Part shown: in pieces, positions 11-14,013 of the stretch | Layout of the letters: each line of letters opens with the position of its first letter | Position numbering within the stretch: position 1 is the first letter of the stretch | NCBI GenBank assembly: GCA_021772595.1 | Contig: JAJFLS010000484.1 | Coordinates: 1-37,015, forward strand | DNA: 37,015 bases | Direction of reading: 5' to 3' | Origin: Opitutales bacterium | Lineage (GTDB): Bacteria > Verrucomicrobiota > Verrucomicrobiia > Opitutales > Opitutaceae | Translations under genes and position numbers: made by a program | Notes under the pieces: model-generated | What the model was told of the DNA's origin: nothing | Databases searched by the model: none | The model's input: only the letters and a program-made list of their open reading frames with translations

Positions 11-1216
11 TCACCGAGGAGTATGAAGGTTGCAATGGGTGGTCTTTCCGTAATCAAATTGAAATTCGTCCCCGGCGTTTTGAATTTGATCCATTTGTGG
101 ATCCTCTTGAACTTGATCGAGAGGCTTTAGAATCTCGTTCTTTTCGATGTGTTCGGCATACGTTGTGATGTTGTGATTGATATGCTGATACAGCCCTGTC
201 TCACGCTCGGTCCTCAGCTCTAGCCATTTGAGTCTACCGTCTCCTTTAACCTGTAGGATCTGTCTTTTGGTGGCCTTGATGAAGGGATTGAAATCTGTGA
301 CAGTGTATGAGTCGAAGTTTGATGCTCCGTACCTCGCTGCCTCTCGACCTCCGACTAGGATCGGGTGAATAGGTCTACCCAATTTATCTTGGAACCGAAT
401 GATGTTGTTCATTGTTCTTTCGGCTCGCCCGTTGTTGCTGTCCGCTGTTTGGAATTCCAGCGTCACGAGGTTTAAGTGTTCTTGTTCCGTATAGAAACTT
501 GTCCAGAATTCCCATTCGCGTTGGGTCGTTGCGTACACATGCGGAGCAGTTGCGACCCCTTCAAAAGCAAAGGAGTCGCCTACCTTGAGGATACGTTTCG
601 TATTCCAAATGTGGTGTGTCTTGGGTAGGTCGAGAAAGTAGGAAAAGTTTGGAGGCGTAACGCATTCTAGGTCGAGTTTCGCCAACGCTTTGGCAGTTTC
701 GTATTGGCTGTGAAAGCTCCAGTATCGCTCAAGATGTCGGTCCTCGCCAACTCCAACGGCGATGATTTTACAGTCGCTCCTTAGGCAAAACAGCTTCCGA
801 AGTTCTTCGCCGTTCTCTGCTATTGGTGCGTATTCGTTTTTGCCTATGCTCTTAAAAAGCTGAAAGAGTGAGACAGCCGCCCAAGCTGTGTCCAAGGGAC
901 GGGCGTTCCTGCTTTTCTTACCTCTCTTCCATGCTTTGTTGATCCTTGGTATGTACGAGGGTAGTTTTACGCCATTTGTATTTGGCAATTGCGCGCAGTT
1001 ATCGGTCGTTAGGCTTTTCCCGTCTACTTCCGCCCATCTCTTCGTGACAAGGTAGGAATCTGGATTGTTGGGGCAGGTATAGTCGCATGTCCCTCTCGGT
1101 ACGCATACCTCCCGGCAGTGGTGAAAGCAGCCAAGTAATTCGTCTTCCTCAGCCATGCCTAGGCAATCGGAAGAGTATCTACACTCTTGGCAGTTGGCAA
1201 ATTGGGCCCCGGTCAC
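11..1216 (-). CDS. Cys-rich N-terminus plus DUF4417/TIM-barrel-like protein (uncharacterised)
   Basis: 401-aa ORF, GTG start overlapping the upstream stop (GTGA). Eight Cys in the first 48 aa (CxxC..C..C...C...C..C...C). Motifs 'CVTPPNFSYFLDLPKTHHIWNTKRIL' and 'TATAPHVYATTQREWEFW'-type region resemble phage/mobile DUF4417 proteins by eye. Confidence 0.6.
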   Translation of the reverse strand: MTGAQFANCQECRYSSDCLGMAEEDELLGCFHHCREVCVPRGTCDYTCPNNPDSYLVTKRWAEVDGKSLTTDNCAQLPNTNGVKLPSYIPRINKAWKRGKKSRNARPLDTAWAAVSLFQLFKSIGKNEYAPIAENGEELRKLFCLRSDCKIIAVGVGEDRHLERYWSFHSQYETAKALAKLDLECVTPPNFSYFLDLPKTHHIWNTKRILKVGDSFAFEGVATAPHVYATTQREWEFWTSFYTEQEHLNLVTLEFQTADSNNGRAERTMNNIIRFQDKLGRPIHPILVGGREAARYGASNFDSYTVTDFNPFIKATKRQILQVKGDGRLKWLELRTERETGLYQHINHNITTYAEHIEKNEILKPLDQVQEDPQMDQIQNAGDEFQFDYGKTTHCNLHTPR

Positions 1217-1602
1217 TTACTCCCCTCTTGGGGCCTCTCGATCTTGACGAGATAATCGCCTGTTAGGATTTCTTGCTCCAAGAAAACCGCCGGTACCTCA
1301 CCGCAGAGTTCGGGATGGGAAGCAAAGAAGGCCTGGAGGGCTTTTTTGCTTTCGTTGTCAGCTTCTCCGATTACTGAAGGTCCTGTCGCTATCGTTACGC
1401 TTTCATCAAGGGAAACAAGCGTGGCTTTACTTCCTGGAGCTATGATTCCGGTCGCTGAAGGACATCGAAAACGGTAGGTTTCCTCGAACTCAGGAGCCGA
1501 ACTGGTGAATAGATTGGATTCGAGGAAGACGGTCTCGAATGCACGATCGCTCCTGTGTTTGAAACGCTTTGCTTTTTCAGCAAGAAATATTAACCCCATC
1601 AA
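1213..1602 (-). CDS. hypothetical protein, 129 aa, operon member
   Basis: ORF overlapping both neighbours on the same strand; no recognised motif. Confidence 0.55.
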   Translation of the reverse strand: MMGLIFLAEKAKRFKHRSDRAFETVFLESNLFTSSAPEFEETYRFRCPSATGIIAPGSKATLVSLDESVTIATGPSVIGEADNESKKALQAFFASHPELCGEVPAVFLEQEILTGDYLVKIERPQEGSK

Positions 1603-2227
1603 TTATCTCCTCCGTTAGCGATGTGTAAACTAGGCTCCTACCGGCCTTGCGTCTGCTCAACAATCTTAGGCGATGAAGTTCCGCAAGTCGGTTGCTCCAT
1701 CCTGATGGCCTGATTCCTACTGCGGGCAAATTCTTAGCTAAGTCGCCTGCCGTGGTTTCTCCGTACTCGGAACAAAACTGAAGCGTATCCTTAATCGCGG
1801 GATCCAATTTGCCGAGTAGTCTCGCGCTCGCAACCTTTCCCTCGTCTATTCTTACAGCACTGAAGATGGCAACACCCCGTCGGCCGAAGACTTCGTTGAC
1901 AGCGTCTTCAACATCTTCAGACGCGTTTTCCAAGATAGGAATAAGGGGGAATGGTTCGAGTTCAGAATTCGCTTCCTTCGCTTCCTCGTAGGTCAGGCTT
2001 TGGGTAAATAGTCTGGAGCAATTGTATAGACTAAGAAGCATCGTTTTTAGGTAGCTAGGAGTTGCGAACTCTACCTTGTCGAAATCGAGCAATACGCTGA
2101 TTTCGTCGGAACTCTCGATGGAGTCCCTTATTTTGTTCTTAGCTAGATCGAAGTGCTTTGTACCCAAGAGAGCGCCTGCCGCATAAGCTCGGCTACCGAG
2201 CATGTCTGAGATCACAATCTTAATCAT
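1577..2227 (-). CDS. STAS-like (DUF4325-type) domain fused to C-terminal winged-HTH-like region
   Basis: N-terminal 'VLLDFDKVEFATPSYLKTMLLSLY' resembles STAS-like DUF4325; C-terminal 'ETTAGDLAKNLPAVGIRPSGWSNRLAELHRLRLLSRRKAGRSLVYTSL' resembles a wHTH. Confidence 0.6.
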   Translation of the reverse strand: MIKIVISDMLGSRAYAAGALLGTKHFDLAKNKIRDSIESSDEISVLLDFDKVEFATPSYLKTMLLSLYNCSRLFTQSLTYEEAKEANSELEPFPLIPILENASEDVEDAVNEVFGRRGVAIFSAVRIDEGKVASARLLGKLDPAIKDTLQFCSEYGETTAGDLAKNLPAVGIRPSGWSNRLAELHRLRLLSRRKAGRSLVYTSLTEEIIDGVNISC

Positions 2228-2268
2228 GTTTATGTTTTATCATCACGTTATCACGTGACGCAAGGAAA

Positions 2269-3105
2269 TTATGGAAAAATCGGTTTCCCGTTCTTCGTGC
2301 ACGTGGCAAAGATAGAAGTACCAGGAAAATTGGCAGTACCTCGAAGGGTAGCCCGTTTGGAGTCCAAAGAACCAGACATGTCGATCCCAGCGGATCCGCT
2401 GGTTATCGTTATCATTCCGCCTATTCCGAGGAAGTTTCGAGTGAATGTTTCAAATCCGTTGCCCTCCGAAGCCTGCACGACGCTGCTCGCGTTTTCACAG
2501 ACCGCCTTTTTAATTGCATCCCTGTCATTGGAGATGCTCGACCACTTAGGGTTTCGAGTAAGGCTGGATAGTATTCCGATGCCGTGATCGATGACCGCGA
2601 TTGCGCTACTGCCGTCATTGACGTGCCACGCCACTAAATGAAAAGGCAGTTGCTCGCTATCTTCTGTGGAATGTCTCGGAATATTGTCTGCCATTTCCTC
2701 GACTGCTGATGCGAGGCTAAGAGAAAGCTTTCTAGCGAATCCCTCCGCCCGGAGTGCTGCTTGGTATCGCTCCAAGAATTGAATCCACGATAGCTCTCCG
2801 GAATCTATTCCTTCCGTTGATCTAGCTTCTGCATGTCCCGAAAGGCATTCGAGTTTGATTGCTTGGGGGCCAGTTTGTATTGTTCTACAATACTCCAGGA
2901 GGTCGCCAAGGAAAGGGCTCCTTCCAATGATTGCCTCCAACAACCCCTCCTTATCATGCTCGTACGATTGCAGTGCGGCACTTACTAAATCTAGTCCGCC
3001 AGCGAGGCTGTACCCTATAGGCGAGGGAGCTGAAGCCAATCGAGAAAGATCGTCATTGGCGGCTAGTTGCCTGATTTGACCAGAAACTTTTACGTCTACG
3101 AACAT
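2269..3105 (-). CDS. GHKL/HATPase_c-type ATP-binding protein (anti-sigma-kinase-like)
   Basis: N-box-like 'AVEEMADNIPRHS', G1-like 'VIDHGIGI', G2-like 'EGNGF'. Confidence 0.65.
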   Translation of the reverse strand: MFVDVKVSGQIRQLAANDDLSRLASAPSPIGYSLAGGLDLVSAALQSYEHDKEGLLEAIIGRSPFLGDLLEYCRTIQTGPQAIKLECLSGHAEARSTEGIDSGELSWIQFLERYQAALRAEGFARKLSLSLASAVEEMADNIPRHSTEDSEQLPFHLVAWHVNDGSSAIAVIDHGIGILSSLTRNPKWSSISNDRDAIKKAVCENASSVVQASEGNGFETFTRNFLGIGGMITITSGSAGIDMSGSLDSKRATLRGTANFPGTSIFATCTKNGKPIFP

Positions 3106-3291: not shown

Positions 3292-3318
3292 TGGTGGAGG
3301 TGGCGGGGGTCGATCCCG
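3292..3318 (-). repeat. att-like partial duplicate of the tmRNA 3' end
   Basis: tggtggaggtggcggg(g)gtcga(t)cccg matches ssrA 3' end 5601-5627 with 2 mismatches in 27; same orientation. Confidence 0.85.
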
Positions 3319-3571
3319 GACGATAACTGGTAATGTATTGATGAAATGTTCTCCCAGAAAATACTTATCAGTCATATTCCAAACCTCATGTTCCAATTAA
3401 GACATTTGCCGCAGTGATGCTTAGCAATAGAGGCGAGGGCGTTATTAGTGGGGCCAAAAGTGGGGCTTTTGTTCACGTAATTCGGCGATATTTCAGAATG
3501 TTTCAACTGCTTGGAAAGCGCTTTAATTTCCACCCCAAAGGCGTAATGGGCCGAATCAATCCCCGTAAGTC

Positions 3572-3840
3572 GTTGATTGTCTTTTAAATGGCGAAGGCCC
3601 AAGGGTTTAAACCTTGGGCCTTCATGGGTGCAGGGCTTGGATTGTTTGGTCGGACTTAGACCTCCTGATCTCTGCCTTCGGCTCCGGAAAGAACCAAGGG
3701 TACCGCTGCGGGATTATGAGCCGGAAGCGACTTTGGCTCGATTGCGTCGTTCCCCATAGCGGGCTCGCTAAGCCCTGTTTATTGAGAATTGGGGAATCTC
3801 TGAAATCAAAGTTCCCCTGTTTTTCTAAAAGACAATCAAC
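3572..3840. repeat. region bounded by 15-bp perfect inverted repeats
   Basis: gttgattgtctttta (3572-3586) vs taaaagacaatcaac (3826-3840). Confidence 0.6.
3593..3623. repeat. 12-bp perfect-arm palindrome, 7-nt loop
   Basis: gaaggcccaagg-gtttaaa-ccttgggccttc. Confidence 0.8.
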
Positions 3841-3934
3841 TAGAGTGGAGGTGTGCGGACAGATTCTCTTCCAACTTTGCTAGAATTAAAAACCGTATGT
3901 CTGAGCGTCTAAGGCCAGAAAGTGAAACATCCCA

Positions 3935-4168
3935 ATGAGCGAGGATAAAACAACGATAGAAGAATCGGAAAATGGCACAAGATTGGTCGATGCCAAAGGC
4001 TTGCTTAACGCTCTGTTCGACGATGATTGCCGACCTTCGCTCCGCTGGGTAAGACAGATGCAATCTACTCGCCGTATTTCCTACATCAAAATTGGGCATT
4101 TGGTGCGTTTTGACATCGGTGAGGTTCGTAAAGAACTGTCAAGCAAGTACAAGGTCTCAAGTCGCTAA
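3935..4168 (+). CDS. small HTH DNA-binding protein, excisionase-like
   Basis: 77 aa: 'DAKGLLNALFDDDCRPSLRWVRQMQSTRRISYIKIGHLVRFDIGEVRKEL', the MerR/excisionase HTH pattern; next to integrase. Confidence 0.75.
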   Translation: MSEDKTTIEESENGTRLVDAKGLLNALFDDDCRPSLRWVRQMQSTRRISYIKIGHLVRFDIGEVRKELSSKYKVSSR

Positions 4169-4245
4169 TGTAGAGATGCCTTAGTACCTCTGGTATCCTC
4201 ACTTGGGCCGTTGCTAGCGACTAGCAAGATTGCCTTCTTTCTTGT

Positions 4246-5544
4246 TTACACAACTTTGAGGTCTGATTTTTGAAATCGGCCTTCGTGCTTTATTAAGTTT
4301 GAAGGTAGCTTCGTTCCTTTGGGGTGGATTTTCCAGAATTCATCCGCTTCCTCGACGGATTTTGAGTCGAGGTAGTGTTTGCGGATAACTAGTTCGGAGT
4401 TTCCTGCTTGTAGTGATGCATCGCCTACTGAGCGGAACGACCCGACGGTCATTGAAATGAAGGTGTGCCGAAGCCCATCGTGGGGAAGCGTGAAGTTTTT
4501 CCTGACATCGACCCACATGTCGCGAAATCGGCGTTCTGGGATGATGGGAAATTTTGCGAGCGGATACTTTCCAAACCAGAGCCGAAGATTGGGTTGGATT
4601 TTGATTGTTCGCTTTTCGTTTACCTTCGAAACTTCCGGTTCGATGTGGATGACGTTCGTATCTAGTTGAATGCTATTCGCGCGTAATTTCGTAATCTCTC
4701 CATCCTTATAATCGGGGCGAACACCAGCGAATAGAGCGAGGGCGAAGTAGGGAATCATACAGCCTTTTTCGCCCCACCAGGAACCGTCTTTGTTTTGCTT
4801 TCCGCGATAGTTTTCGAGGAAGGCCATGAATTCGCGGGCCTCCGTTGCAGAGAGTGTGGCTGCGGTACCGCGAGCTTTCTTAATCTTGTATTGCGGTACT
4901 TCGAGTATTGGGTTTTCCGCTACGAACTTCTTGGAGAGAGAGTATTTGAAAAAGGTGCTCAAGTAGCCGCGTCGATTGTTCCAGGTCTTGAGAGAAGGAG
5001 CTGATGACGGCTTGCGGTTTTTGTTTTGGTATCGGGGTGGGGCATTGAGGTATTCCTTGATTTCTTCGGGGCCAATCTCGCCGACGATTCGTGCGGGGAA
5101 GTAGTCGCAGAGTTTCAGCAATTCGAATTTGATGGCTCGAAGCTGCCGGGAGGTGATTATCTCGCGTTCCATTTCGATCTGTTTTTCGAGAAGGTATTCT
5201 TTGACCGCTTCGGGAAGGCTCATTTGCTCCGCTACTTCCTTGTAGTGTTCGAGAAAATATTTGACTGCGAAGGTGAGCGTACGCTTGGACTCGGCGGCTT
5301 TGAGGATATTGTTTGCGGCAATGGCCTCTCGATTATCCTCGAGGCTTAGCGTTGTCCAGATTGTCTGGCCGCTCGATGGCTCATTCAGCCGTATGATGTC
5401 GAGCTTCTGCCGGAATGCGACGGCCTCCTTGCGAGTGTCGAAATTCTTCCGTATGCGTTCGCCGTTCAATGTGCCTGAAAGGCGATGGACGAACTGGCCG
5501 CTCGGGTTCTTGAACCGGGCGATCTTAAACGATTGCTTTGCCAT
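4246..5544 (-). CDS. tyrosine recombinase / phage-type integrase
   Basis: 'LFAGVRP' (Arg I), 'LPHDGLRHTFIS' (HxxR), C-terminal 'KHYLDSKS' (catalytic Tyr); adjacent to tmRNA att site. Confidence 0.93.
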   Translation of the reverse strand: MAKQSFKIARFKNPSGQFVHRLSGTLNGERIRKNFDTRKEAVAFRQKLDIIRLNEPSSGQTIWTTLSLEDNREAIAANNILKAAESKRTLTFAVKYFLEHYKEVAEQMSLPEAVKEYLLEKQIEMEREIITSRQLRAIKFELLKLCDYFPARIVGEIGPEEIKEYLNAPPRYQNKNRKPSSAPSLKTWNNRRGYLSTFFKYSLSKKFVAENPILEVPQYKIKKARGTAATLSATEAREFMAFLENYRGKQNKDGSWWGEKGCMIPYFALALFAGVRPDYKDGEITKLRANSIQLDTNVIHIEPEVSKVNEKRTIKIQPNLRLWFGKYPLAKFPIIPERRFRDMWVDVRKNFTLPHDGLRHTFISMTVGSFRSVGDASLQAGNSELVIRKHYLDSKSVEEADEFWKIHPKGTKLPSNLIKHEGRFQKSDLKVV

Positions 5545-5554
5545 TATTTGTCAA

Positions 5555-5578
5555 ATTTGCCAATTACTATTGGCAAAT
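5555..5578. promoter_or_regulatory. palindrome upstream of int (possible operator)
   Basis: atttgccaat-tact-attggcaaat, 10-bp perfect arms, between int start and ssrA. Confidence 0.5.
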
Positions 5579-5600
5579 GCAAGCTAAGTCGTTGATAAAT

Positions 5601-5958
<358 letters not shown>

Positions 5959-10011: not shown

Positions 10012-10100
10012 GGTTGGGATAGTTGGGTGACCGCGGAGCGGATTTCAATTGCGAATTCGCTAAATCGGTTCGAATCGCGGTGGTGAGGGGCAAAAAATAA

Positions 10101-10130
10101 GGCGGGCAGCCTACCCCTAAGCTGCCCGCC
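10101..10130 (-). terminator. terminator-like hairpin in the 5' leader of DAHP synthase (possible attenuator)
   Basis: ggcgggcagc...gctgcccgcc 10-bp arms followed by TTATTTTTTG on minus strand. Confidence 0.65.
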
Positions 10131-10193
10131 ATCTCGTTTTCTTAGTTACCCCAAAATCCCGCTAGGCGGGAAAGTCTTTGTTGTTGACCGAGT

Positions 10194-10221
10194 GAGATAT
10201 GGTTCGTCTGGTGTCTGTCAA
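10194..10221 (-). promoter_or_regulatory. candidate sigma70-type promoter for DAHP synthase leader
   Basis: minus strand TTGACA-16 nt-TATCTC. Confidence 0.4.
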
Positions 10222-10268
10222 CCCGTATTGTGAAAATATTTTTAGAGACAGTTGTAAGTCGTTGATAG

Positions 10269-11186
10269 ATGGCCTCTTCCAGTGCATATTTCTTTTCTCC
10301 CGAAGGGGAGCTTTTTGTTGAAGGCGAGGATGCAGCGGTTTTCTTGCAGGGCCAGTTCTCCAATAATCTCCGAATTGCCGACGGCGCGGTCGCGTATGGG
10401 CTGTGGTTGAGCTCGAAGGGAAAAGTCCTGGCGGACAGCTTTGTGTTGAAACAGTCCGAGGAGAGTTTTTTGGCGATTAGCTATTTTTGCGAGACGACGA
10501 TTTTGCAGGAGAATTTGGAAAGCCGGATCATCATGGACGAGGTGGAGACGCGGCCGCCGGCAACCGAGTTTCGCGGCGCATCTCTTTGGGGCGATGCGAT
10601 TGGGCTGGCGAGGGAAGCGCTGAATTTGGAAGAAGTAGAAGAAGGCGCGTTTGCGTTCAAAGACGGCGTATACGCTTTCTGGGGACGGAGAGGATCCGAG
10701 CCTAACTTGGAGATAGTCTCGAGCAACGCGGCCGCTATGGATGGGCTGCTTGAGGCGATTGAAGGAGCGGAGATCCGTATCTTGGATACGTTTGAAATCG
10801 AGTTGATGGCGCTGCGTTCGGGGAACTACGAAGTTTCGAAAGACATTCTGCCAAGCGATCTTCCGCAAGAAGTTGGACTGGGCGATATCGCGGTGTCGTA
10901 TAATAAAGGCTGCTACATCGGACAGGAGGTGATGGCTCGGTTGAAGGCGATGGGTCAGTCGCGGCGTTCTCTGGAATGGGTTTCGGTTTCGCGGGATCCG
11001 TCTGGCGTCGGGCCGTGGGTTTTGAGAGATGGAGCGGGCAAGCGAGCGGGCGAATTGAGAAGGACGATTCTAGGGGAAGGCGCTGAGCGAGTGGGCTCGG
11101 CGATGCTCAAGAAGGCGAACCTCGACGACACTTTCACGGTAGAAAGTCAGCCAGAAATTAGAGTGTCGCGGATTGTTAAGGACTGA
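10269..11186 (+). CDS. ygfZ: YgfZ/GcvT-domain folate-binding protein
   Basis: 'YNKGCYIGQEVMARLKAMG' YgfZ signature. Confidence 0.88.
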   Translation: MASSSAYFFSPEGELFVEGEDAAVFLQGQFSNNLRIADGAVAYGLWLSSKGKVLADSFVLKQSEESFLAISYFCETTILQENLESRIIMDEVETRPPATEFRGASLWGDAIGLAREALNLEEVEEGAFAFKDGVYAFWGRRGSEPNLEIVSSNAAAMDGLLEAIEGAEIRILDTFEIELMALRSGNYEVSKDILPSDLPQEVGLGDIAVSYNKGCYIGQEVMARLKAMGQSRRSLEWVSVSRDPSGVGPWVLRDGAGKRAGELRRTILGEGAERVGSAMLKKANLDDTFTVESQPEIRVSRIVKD

Positions 11187-11191
11187 ATTGC

Positions 11192-11443
11192 ATGAACCCG
11201 GAAGACGAGTTGCGACAGATTACGGATCTTTGCGAGAAGCTTGGATCGCCTCGGGATCAGGCGGAAACGATGGCCCAGCAGCTTGTCAAGCGGGCGGATC
11301 AACTGGTCGAGGAGCGAGGTTTGGATCGAATTGAGGCGATGCAGCGCCTTTTGGAACTGGTCGTTTCCGGCCGCCAAGGCGTGACTCCGCCGGAGTTTAG
11401 CGGGGAAAGGACGGGAAAATCCGACACGAGCGACGAAATTTGA
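11192..11443 (+). CDS. hypothetical small protein
   Basis: 83-aa ORF directly downstream of ygfZ. Confidence 0.6.
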   Translation: MNPEDELRQITDLCEKLGSPRDQAETMAQQLVKRADQLVEERGLDRIEAMQRLLELVVSGRQGVTPPEFSGERTGKSDTSDEI

Positions 11444-11551
11444 GTGAATGCAAACAATTCGTTTGACGCAGGTGTTTAAGATTATTCGATTCAACCGGTT
11501 TTCTCACCTGGGAAATTCTAAACAATAAAAAATAATTATTACTATTCACAT

Positions 11552-11866
11552 ATGAATAAAGCCGAACTCGTCGCAGAAATTCAAAACAACCTTGATGGCT
11601 CTTCCAAAGCGGAAGCCGAAAAAGCATTGAGCGCAGTATTGAGCTCAATCAAGACCGCCGTAAAGAAGGCAGGCAAAGAAGTGAAAATTAGCGATAAAGA
11701 CGCTAAGGACGCGGTAGCGATACAGCTCGTCGGCTTCGGCAGTTTTTCGGTAACTCGCCGCAACGCGCGTACCGGCATCAATCCGCTAACGAAGGCTCCT
11801 TTGAAGATCAAGGCGAGCAAGGCGGTAAAGTTCAAGGTCGGCGCTGGTCTTAAGGAACAGCTCTAG
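11552..11866 (+). CDS. hup: HU-family DNA-binding protein
   Basis: 'MNKAELVAEIQ', 'VGFGSFSVTRRNARTGINPLT'. Confidence 0.93.
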   Translation: MNKAELVAEIQNNLDGSSKAEAEKALSAVLSSIKTAVKKAGKEVKISDKDAKDAVAIQLVGFGSFSVTRRNARTGINPLTKAPLKIKASKAVKFKVGAGLKEQL

Positions 11867-11893
11867 TCCGTTTAGCTTTTATCGAATTTATTG

Positions 11894-11919
11894 ATCCTGC
11901 AGCTTTACGGCTGCGGGAT
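11894..11919 (+). terminator. terminator after HU gene
   Basis: atcctgcagc-tttacg-gctgcgggat followed by tttttcgtttt. Confidence 0.7.
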
Positions 11920-11941
11920 TTTTCGTTTTAAGATTCCTGCA

Positions 11942-13123
11942 ATGTCCATGATCAACGAACTTAAGAGCCGCTTTCGCGAGAGTTATGGAGCGAATCCCAG
12001 TGTGATAACTATCGCGCCGGGGCGAGTGGAAGTGATCGGAAACCACACCGACTACAATCAAGGTCCGGTGATCGGCGCGGCGATCGATAGAAGCGTCATG
12101 GTGGCGTTGCGACGTACGGAAGAGCCCATCTTCAAATTTTCTAGCGCAGGATCAGCCGTCGTGAAGATTGCCGATCCAGTCAAGCCGCAGAATGGTCAGG
12201 CGTCGTGGATCAATTATCCTTTGGGCGTATACAATGCATTGATACGAAGAGGATTGGAGCCAGAGGGTGGATTTGAGATGTCCGTGGAGTCGGATGTTCC
12301 TTCCGGCGCGGGCCTAAGCAGCAGCGCGGCGCTGGAGTTGGCAGCGGGAAAGGCGATGAGCGAGGCGTACGGGGTTGGATTGGATTCGTACAATCTTGCG
12401 CTCGCGAGTCGCGAAGCGGAGAACGAGTTCGTCGGAGTGCCGTGCGGAATTCTGGACCAGGGAGTTTCGGCCTTCGGGAAAGCGGGGCATCTGGTGTACA
12501 TCGATTGTCGGGATTTTGAGTTTTCGACGATTCCGATCGGAGACGAATTCAGCATTTGGATTTTCAATACGCATAAGAAGCACTCTTTGCTAGAGTCGAT
12601 GTATTCGAAGCGGCATGAGGAATGCCACGAAGCGGTCGCGCAATTGAAGGCTGCCGGGCTCGACATTACTTGCTTGGCGGATGTGTCTCCCGAGCAGTTC
12701 GAAGAGCGCAAATCAGCTCTAGATTCGGTTGTATCCAAGCGGGCGGAGCATGTGATCTACGAGATCGATCGTGTCAAACGGGTTCAGGAATATCTCAAGA
12801 ACGGTGAGTCGGCGGCGGTTGGCAAGTTGTTGTTCGCTTCGCACGCCAGCTCGAGAGACCAGTTTGGAAATAGCGTGGAAGAATTGGACTATTTGGTGAA
12901 GATCCTGGAATCGTTGCCGGAGGTTATTGGGGCTCGCTTGACGGGTGGCGGATTTGGCGGCGCGGTGATGGCGTTGGCTGGCGAGGCGTTTACCGCGTCC
13001 TACGCAGAGTCTGTCGCTTCCGCGTATCGAGGAATGTTTGGAGAAGCTCCGGAAGTGATAGAGTGTCACATTGCCGATGGCGTTCGGGTTCTCGAAAGCC
13101 GGTTGGGAGCTCCGTCTTATTGA
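11942..13123 (+). CDS. galK: galactokinase (GHMP kinase)
   Basis: 'PGRVEVIGNHTDYNQG', 'PSGAGLSSSAALE', 'RLTGGGFGGAVMAL'; start moved downstream of HU terminator. Confidence 0.9.
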   Translation: MSMINELKSRFRESYGANPSVITIAPGRVEVIGNHTDYNQGPVIGAAIDRSVMVALRRTEEPIFKFSSAGSAVVKIADPVKPQNGQASWINYPLGVYNALIRRGLEPEGGFEMSVESDVPSGAGLSSSAALELAAGKAMSEAYGVGLDSYNLALASREAENEFVGVPCGILDQGVSAFGKAGHLVYIDCRDFEFSTIPIGDEFSIWIFNTHKKHSLLESMYSKRHEECHEAVAQLKAAGLDITCLADVSPEQFEERKSALDSVVSKRAEHVIYEIDRVKRVQEYLKNGESAAVGKLLFASHASSRDQFGNSVEELDYLVKILESLPEVIGARLTGGGFGGAVMALAGEAFTASYAESVASAYRGMFGEAPEVIECHIADGVRVLESRLGAPSY

Positions 13124-14013
13124 GCTAATCTTTGGATGAGCTCGAAGTACTGATCGACCTCTTTCTCTAATAGTAGCAGGTAGACGAGCGCGCCGGCGAC
13201 GAGCATTGGACCGAAAGGCATTTGTTTCCCCACTATTCGATCGTCCTCATCGGATCCCTTTTTGGCCCGCAAGGACGGGACGGTCGCTTTTGCGATTAGC
13301 CAAAGAATGAATCCCAGCGTTCCGATCACGGCTCCTCCGAACAGGGCGAAAACAGCGCCTTCCCAGCCGGCGAAAGCACCGATGCCGCCGAGCAATTTAA
13401 CGTCTCCGAATCCCATGGCTTCCTTGCGTAGGATCGTTTCGGCTGCGAGCGCGATCCAGAGAATGAGTCCTGAACCGATCATGATCCCGATGAGCGATTC
13501 GAAAAGCCCTTTAGTTCCCGCGACGAGCGAATTCGGCTCCACGATGCCGTGCAAGGAGGGAACGAATACGGAAAGAACGACGCCCGAGAGAGCGGCTCCG
13601 TAAGAGAATCGATCGGGGATCTCCATGTGATCGAAATCGATAAAGGCGGCGCTGATCATCAGGGGAATGAAGACAAGAAGGCAGGCCGCTTTGGCGTGAG
13701 GATGCTGGAGCCAAGCCGCGAGGAAGAGGCAGGCCGTCAGCAATTCGACAAAAGGATAGCGGATGCTGTAGGGAGCATTGCAGCATCTGGCTTTGCCACG
13801 CAGGATGAACCAGCTGAGGATGGGGATGTTGTCGAACCACTTTATGGGGGCGCCGCACGCGCAGGTGGATCCTGGAAAGGCGATGGATTTCTTGGCAGGT
13901 ATTCGATAAATGCACACGTTAAGAAAACTCCCGATCAACGCTCCGAGGATAAAGATGGCGGCGGAGAAGAAAGCGGGGAATTCCTGATCGAGGGCGTTGA
14001 GTTCGGATAACAT
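13117..14013 (-). CDS. type IV prepilin peptidase (A24 family)
   Basis: 'GALIGSFLNVCIYRIP', 'FIDFDHMEIPDRFS', 'GFGDVKLLGGIGAFAGW'. Confidence 0.93.
   Translation of the reverse strand: MLSELNALDQEFPAFFSAAIFILGALIGSFLNVCIYRIPAKKSIAFPGSTCACGAPIKWFDNIPILSWFILRGKARCCNAPYSIRYPFVELLTACLFLAAWLQHPHAKAACLLVFIPLMISAAFIDFDHMEIPDRFSYGAALSGVVLSVFVPSLHGIVEPNSLVAGTKGLFESLIGIMIGSGLILWIALAAETILRKEAMGFGDVKLLGGIGAFAGWEGAVFALFGGAVIGTLGFILWLIAKATVPSLRAKKGSDEDDRIVGKQMPFGPMLVAGALVYLLLLEKEVDQYFELIQRLAQ

Follow-up and report, generated by a model that had tools for sequence, protein, structure and literature searches.

Introduction

GHKL kinases and STAS proteins form the partner switches SpoIIAB/SpoIIAA and RsbW/RsbV, which serve in sigma-factor control. 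In the CapK/CapS pair, CapK phosphorylates the repressor CapS, whose proven phospho-serine is Ser54, and immune operons are derepressed (Chambers et al., EMBO J 2026, PMC13373217). The pair responds to DNA damage, with the HTH-STAS region of CapK helping to bind the activating ssDNA. CapS binds a TTAA palindrome that lies between the capK and capS genes, and many of the linked operons may, according to the authors, be stress responses (PMC13373217). The same study describes VapKSC, a GHKL/STAS pair able to act as a toxin-antitoxin-like switch on the VapC PIN nuclease; VapS has no winged helix-turn-helix (wHTH) and carries a short C-terminal region only (PMC13373217). Phages and actinobacterial plasmids encode DUF4417 (PF14386) proteins that are often fused to ParB or encoded next to it (PMC12704722). 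Here we describe a four-gene module that shares features with each of these and makes a good candidate for a bacterial defence system that has yet to be named.

A conserved four-gene locus

The window analysed, 37,015 nt long, is one whole contig of the draft genome of an Opitutales bacterium. The locus consists of four genes, named here G, S, M and D:

2269..3105, minus strand: G, GHKL (Bergerat-fold) protein of 278 aa with a CapK-like kinase domain
1577..2227, minus strand: S, STAS-like and winged-HTH protein of 216 aa, predicted CapS-like repressor
1213..1599, minus strand (corrected start): M, small protein of 128 aa, an N-terminal helix followed by a candidate HIRAN-like beta domain
11..1216, minus strand: D, DUF4417-like protein of 401 aa with an N-terminal eight-cysteine cluster and a TIM-barrel domain, putative effector

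G and S are separated by 41 nt (2228-2268), while M and D overlap by 4 nt. M very probably starts at ATG 1599 and not at TTG 1602, since its first dipeptide is MG- in all 46 aligned relatives. This shortens the S/M overlap from the 26 nt of the sequence-only reading to 23 nt, and leaves its four same-strand reading frames, gap and 4-nt overlap unchanged. D stops 11 bases short of where the contig ends, and the side of the locus beyond it is therefore not visible. Scans of the window proteins against Pfam, NCBIfam, PADLOC and PHROG gave weak labels or none.

With D as the only query, we scanned 85,462 species genomes and then applied profiles for the four proteins. The resulting 69 genome loci, together with six plasmid loci, the window itself and one locus in a genome from the same family as the window, give a set of 77. 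All four genes are present in 73 of these, including one locus (L013) whose M was found by eye. The loci were collected with D, which makes the finding of G, S and M beside it independent evidence; the operon is real, and its genes occur together far more often than chance would give. Three of the incomplete loci are cut by contig ends (L049, L072 and L080) and the fourth (L082) is decayed, with a truncated D and without S or M. Relatives of the module proteins are 13-33% identical to those of the window, and their hosts are mostly Alphaproteobacteria, with Planctomycetota, Acidobacteriota, Gammaproteobacteria and others also represented.

Three arrangements were observed: S-M-D with G convergent (36 loci), S-M-D-G (31 loci, D being broken in one of them) and G-S-M-D (six loci: the window, L013, the Planctomycetota locus L003, L067, L069 and L074). 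The genes annotated behind D on its own strand in L004 and L005 are misannotations; G is in fact encoded on the other strand. The module is also carried on plasmids, where single-gene searches had already recovered the neighbours together. S is single-copy in 24 of the 25 module genomes searched, the other having an extra weak, partial match to the wHTH. No fixed fifth gene was found among 574 flanking ORFs, the commonest families (OLD-TOPRIM and AbiE) occurring in at most nine loci. The D profile matched 2 of 390 genomes of the window's phylum, a rare and sporadic distribution that fits the expectation for mobile cargo.

G and S resemble CapK and CapS

That G is a GHKL protein, as first read, is supported by its family. 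HATPase_c_2 (PF13581) falls below the cut-off in the window protein and is matched in 35 of 40 G members; phrog_3364 matches G at 1.6e-16. Comparison with CapK by hhalign gave a probability of 95 and an E-value of 3e-8 over 116 GHKL columns. Residues E137, N141, D173, G175, G177, G215 and G217 are invariant in the 40 members; the active-site boxes align with those of CapK, and N141 corresponds to its catalytic N218. The alignment covers only residues 210-343 of the 368 in CapK, and the HTH-STAS region of CapK, with its ssDNA-contacting Trp, was undetectable in G. The N-terminal ~110 aa of G appear to be either unrelated to those of CapK or highly diverged. Because the undetected region aids ssDNA binding in CapK, the activating signal may differ.

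S had been proposed as a STAS partner with its own wHTH, and both domains are borne out. A DUF4325/STAS-like domain was recognised in 26 of 39 S members, and the S profile aligned over both domains with four CapS-family plasmid proteins (hhalign probability 97.9, E-value 6e-13, 171 columns). The top PDB matches over both domains, 9z72 and 9z71, are the CapS proteins of V. cholerae and E. roggenkampii (PMC13373217). The CapS phospho-serine S54, within 52-DSSF-55, aligns with S58 of the window protein, a position that is Ser in 39 of 39 members; T56, two residues earlier, is also invariant. Ser58 is the predicted phospho-acceptor of S. The recognition helix spans approximately W177-L184, in which W177-x-N179-R180-L181 is invariant.

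The module shares with CapK/CapS a GHKL kinase gene adjoining a STAS-wHTH gene, the phospho-serine, a palindrome upstream of the STAS-wHTH gene (below) and an association with immune genes. The two also differ. The half-site is TCAC/GTGA in the module and TTAA for CapS; S overlaps or abuts M and is followed by the same two genes, M and D, whereas capS precedes separate, interchangeable immune operons that have their own operator; and G lacks a detectable HTH-STAS region, with the GHKL gene often convergent. SpoIIAB/SpoIIAA and RsbW/RsbV also pair a GHKL kinase with a STAS protein bearing a phospho-Ser at the same position. We rejected a sigma-factor partner switch, as no sigma factor is linked to the module. 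In contrast to those systems, its STAS protein has a DNA-binding domain of its own; the nearest known mechanism is CapK/CapS and not SpoIIAB/SpoIIAA-type sigma control. The initial statement that no named system is known with this exact composition needs dividing: the control pair has been known since June 2026, with CapK/CapS as its named relative, and no description of the putative M-D effector pair was found in the literature searched. The main text of PMC13373217 does not mention DUF4417.

A conserved palindrome in the G/S gap

The G/S gap contains a palindromic operator candidate, identified by pattern match:

2243..2258, no strand assigned: predicted operator TCACGTTATCACGTGA (TCAC-N8-GTGA)

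A dyad upstream of S is visible by eye in most loci. The pattern TCAY-N8/9-RTGA, which was picked after inspecting sequences from loci that are related to each other, is present in 69 of 72 S-upstream windows, compared with 1 of 64 G-upstream windows and a background expectation, in the same loci, of about 0.9% per 90-bp window. Chance is an unlikely cause, given this contrast and the spread of the palindrome over several phyla. The half-sites covary in several loci, from TCAC..GTGA to TCAT..ATGA (L005 and L014, for example).

Since the conserved palindrome sits in the 41-nt gap, S, M and D probably have their own operator and promoter there and would be transcribed alone as well as with G. 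The four genes need not share the one transcript that the sequence-only reading took as likely, with a predicted operator in the gap and the GHKL gene on the opposite strand in the 36 convergent loci.

M and D, a putative effector pair

The AlphaFold2 model of M has a mean pLDDT of 79, with most blocks of the beta domain above 90. Foldseek matches in the PDB were to the HIRAN domains of HLTF and Rad5 (probability 0.97-1.00); these are weak, with E-values of 0.05-0.3 and a TM-score of ~0.45. The Pfam HIRAN family was not found in 40 M members, and on our own reading M shows no clear counterpart to the loop with which HIRAN domains grip DNA ends. We treat the HIRAN-like fold as a lead suggested by the model and not as proof.

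PF14386 matched the window D with an E-value of 1e-4 and 22.3 bits, under the gathering cut-off of 28.9, and 3 of 43 D members at E ≤ 0.1. By these scores D would be a relative of DUF4417 only: it has the conserved core, whereas the DUF4417 proteins of phages and actinobacterial plasmids are not part of the four-gene set. On Streptomyces plasmids, DUF4417-like proteins occur beside ParB in the absence of the module (L009 and L010). The phrog_8680 profile matched D at 1.6e-6; we did not accept the PHROG label "nuclease" for D, which may stem from ParB-type fusions. A profile search of viral contigs with D found no relative, and against named phage genomes the match was limited to a 20% core.

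The first description of D as a Cys-rich TIM-barrel protein stands. Eight N-terminal cysteines (C9, C12, C18, C30, C34, C38, C44 and C48) are conserved in 46-51 of 51 members, which suggests a metal or Fe-S site, and the model (pTM 0.80) is a TIM barrel. Its best PDB matches include bacterial TGT, QTRT2 and DpdA over most of the length (probability 0.97-1.00, query TM-score 0.36-0.46), other TIM-barrel families scoring similarly; named matches in the viral library BFVD were mostly queuine tRNA-ribosyltransferases (phage TGTs). The conserved polar residues D159, E163, N190, S192, H226, E254 and T257 follow barrel strands. D159 and E254 are conserved, and there is no conserved Asp at 309/310, roughly where the TGT nucleophile would be expected by our estimate of the position.

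Defence-gene neighbourhood

The sequence-only reading had pointed to a defence-island setting, which the flanking genes support. The 108 proteins flanking ~33 modules match 423 PADLOC families (E ≤ 1e-5), led by AbiEi/AbiEii and GajA, while 108 control proteins at least 40 kb away on module-carrying contigs match 16 families, one member each; PADLOC models are redundant, so these are not numbers of systems, and the contrast is still clear. Pfam matches in the flanks include KwaB, HamA, OLD-TOPRIM with UvrD (Gabija), HipA, Mrr and Piwi, and homologues of AbiE, Gabija, Kiwa and Hachiman are dense there. The four module proteins themselves matched no family in PADLOC-DB 2.0.0, even at E ≤ 1.

Neighbourhood enrichment can reflect island residence instead of function, and the module might be a unit for general stress, repair or nucleic-acid modification whose presence in islands is incidental. 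The resemblance of D to TGT/DpdA-like TIM barrels would suit such a role, as would the stress responses that the CapKS authors suspect behind linked operons (PMC13373217) and the fact that most flanking defence genes differ from locus to locus. Given the strength of the enrichment over the same-contig control, the sporadic distribution and the plasmid carriage, we regard this explanation as quite unlikely.

Several candidate defence operons were observed close to the module. These are a DprA-like (ShosA-like) gene with a phosphoribosyltransferase gene in L004 (2723-4622) and a Gabija-like OLD-TOPRIM/UvrD pair in L005 (8112-11779). In L020 and L021 (~10055-13380), a putative SIR2-like gene precedes a Piwi-like gene (short pAgo type) directly beside the module.

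Proposed mechanism

We consider it fairly likely that the four genes form one module serving in defence, in which a CapK/CapS-type phospho-switch (G and S) controls one dedicated effector unit made up of the proteins M and D. At rest, an S dimer would bind TCAY-N8/9-RTGA at its own promoter and keep S-M-D expression low. By analogy with CapKS, an infection or DNA-damage signal would lead G to phosphorylate S at Ser58, whereupon the STAS dimer would fall apart and S-M-D would be derepressed. M and D would then act together as the defence effector, with nucleic acid of the phage or the host as their most likely target.

The main rival is a toxin-antitoxin-like switch, in which S directly inhibits D or an M-D complex, phosphorylation by G frees the toxin and promoter repression serves autoregulation only. 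VapKSC, which like the module is a closed set of GHKL, STAS and effector genes, provides a precedent for such action by a GHKL/STAS pair (PMC13373217). S, M and D overlap or abut in one operon, as toxin-antitoxin pairs often do, and the constant presence of D and M makes a direct complex plausible. However, S, unlike VapS, retains a wHTH, its recognition helix is invariant and its predicted operator is conserved, and Pfam finds no PIN domain in either M or D, so that two partner proteins without a PIN match take the place of VapC. On balance we judge direct inhibition unlikely.

Returning to derepression by phosphorylated S, a more specific version can be put forward tentatively, although we rate it as rather improbable in full: an anti-phage system, as yet unnamed, whose CapKS-type switch permanently controls two partners: M, a DNA-binding adaptor with a HIRAN-like fold, and D, a TIM-barrel enzyme of the TGT/DpdA-like kind with a metal cluster, which would chemically alter or remove bases of invading nucleic acid. 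The module would represent a divergent branch of immune control by GHKL/STAS phospho-switches, present in Alphaproteobacteria, Planctomycetota and other phyla and linked to a single fixed gene pair; its conserved operator is directly testable. For DUF4417-like proteins, common in phages and plasmids and without a known function, the module supplies a functional setting, obligate partners and predicted active-site residues.

The ssrA site and other minor observations

Further features lie next to the module in the window:

3292..3317, plus strand: second tmRNA 3'-end copy, att-like (two exact pattern matches in the window, 0 expected)
4246..5544, minus strand: ORF of 432 aa, taken as a tyrosine-recombinase-type integrase from its sequence and its position beside the tmRNA 3' end
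5601..5958, minus strand: tmRNA (ssrA), integration site

The integrase-type ORF has no Pfam or NCBIfam match. The tmRNA 3'-end copies at 3292-3317 and 5601-5626 bound a small integrase element (3292-5626). The module had been described as cargo next to a recombinase at ssrA; the adjacency is correct, and the module lies just outside the integrase element, beyond the copy at 3292-3317. Module and element are neighbours, for which tandem insertion at ssrA would be the simplest reading.

A 77-aa ORF (3935-4168, plus strand) between the att-like copy and the integrase looks like a small excisionase-like HTH protein and has no family match. Three more near-copies of the tmRNA 3' end lie on contigs C506 and C131 of the same genome, in stretches without a tmRNA gene; on C506, a Fic-like gene and a GIY-YIG-like gene lie between two copies spaced 2.9 kb apart. 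These repeats point to several ssrA-targeted elements in the genome. Elsewhere, on the Acinetobacter plasmid pARA1 (L085, 3378-4555), a CapS-like STAS-wHTH gene follows a gene for 188 aa in place of one for a full-length CapK, a few genes after a ParB gene, and may represent a further kinase-repressor variant.
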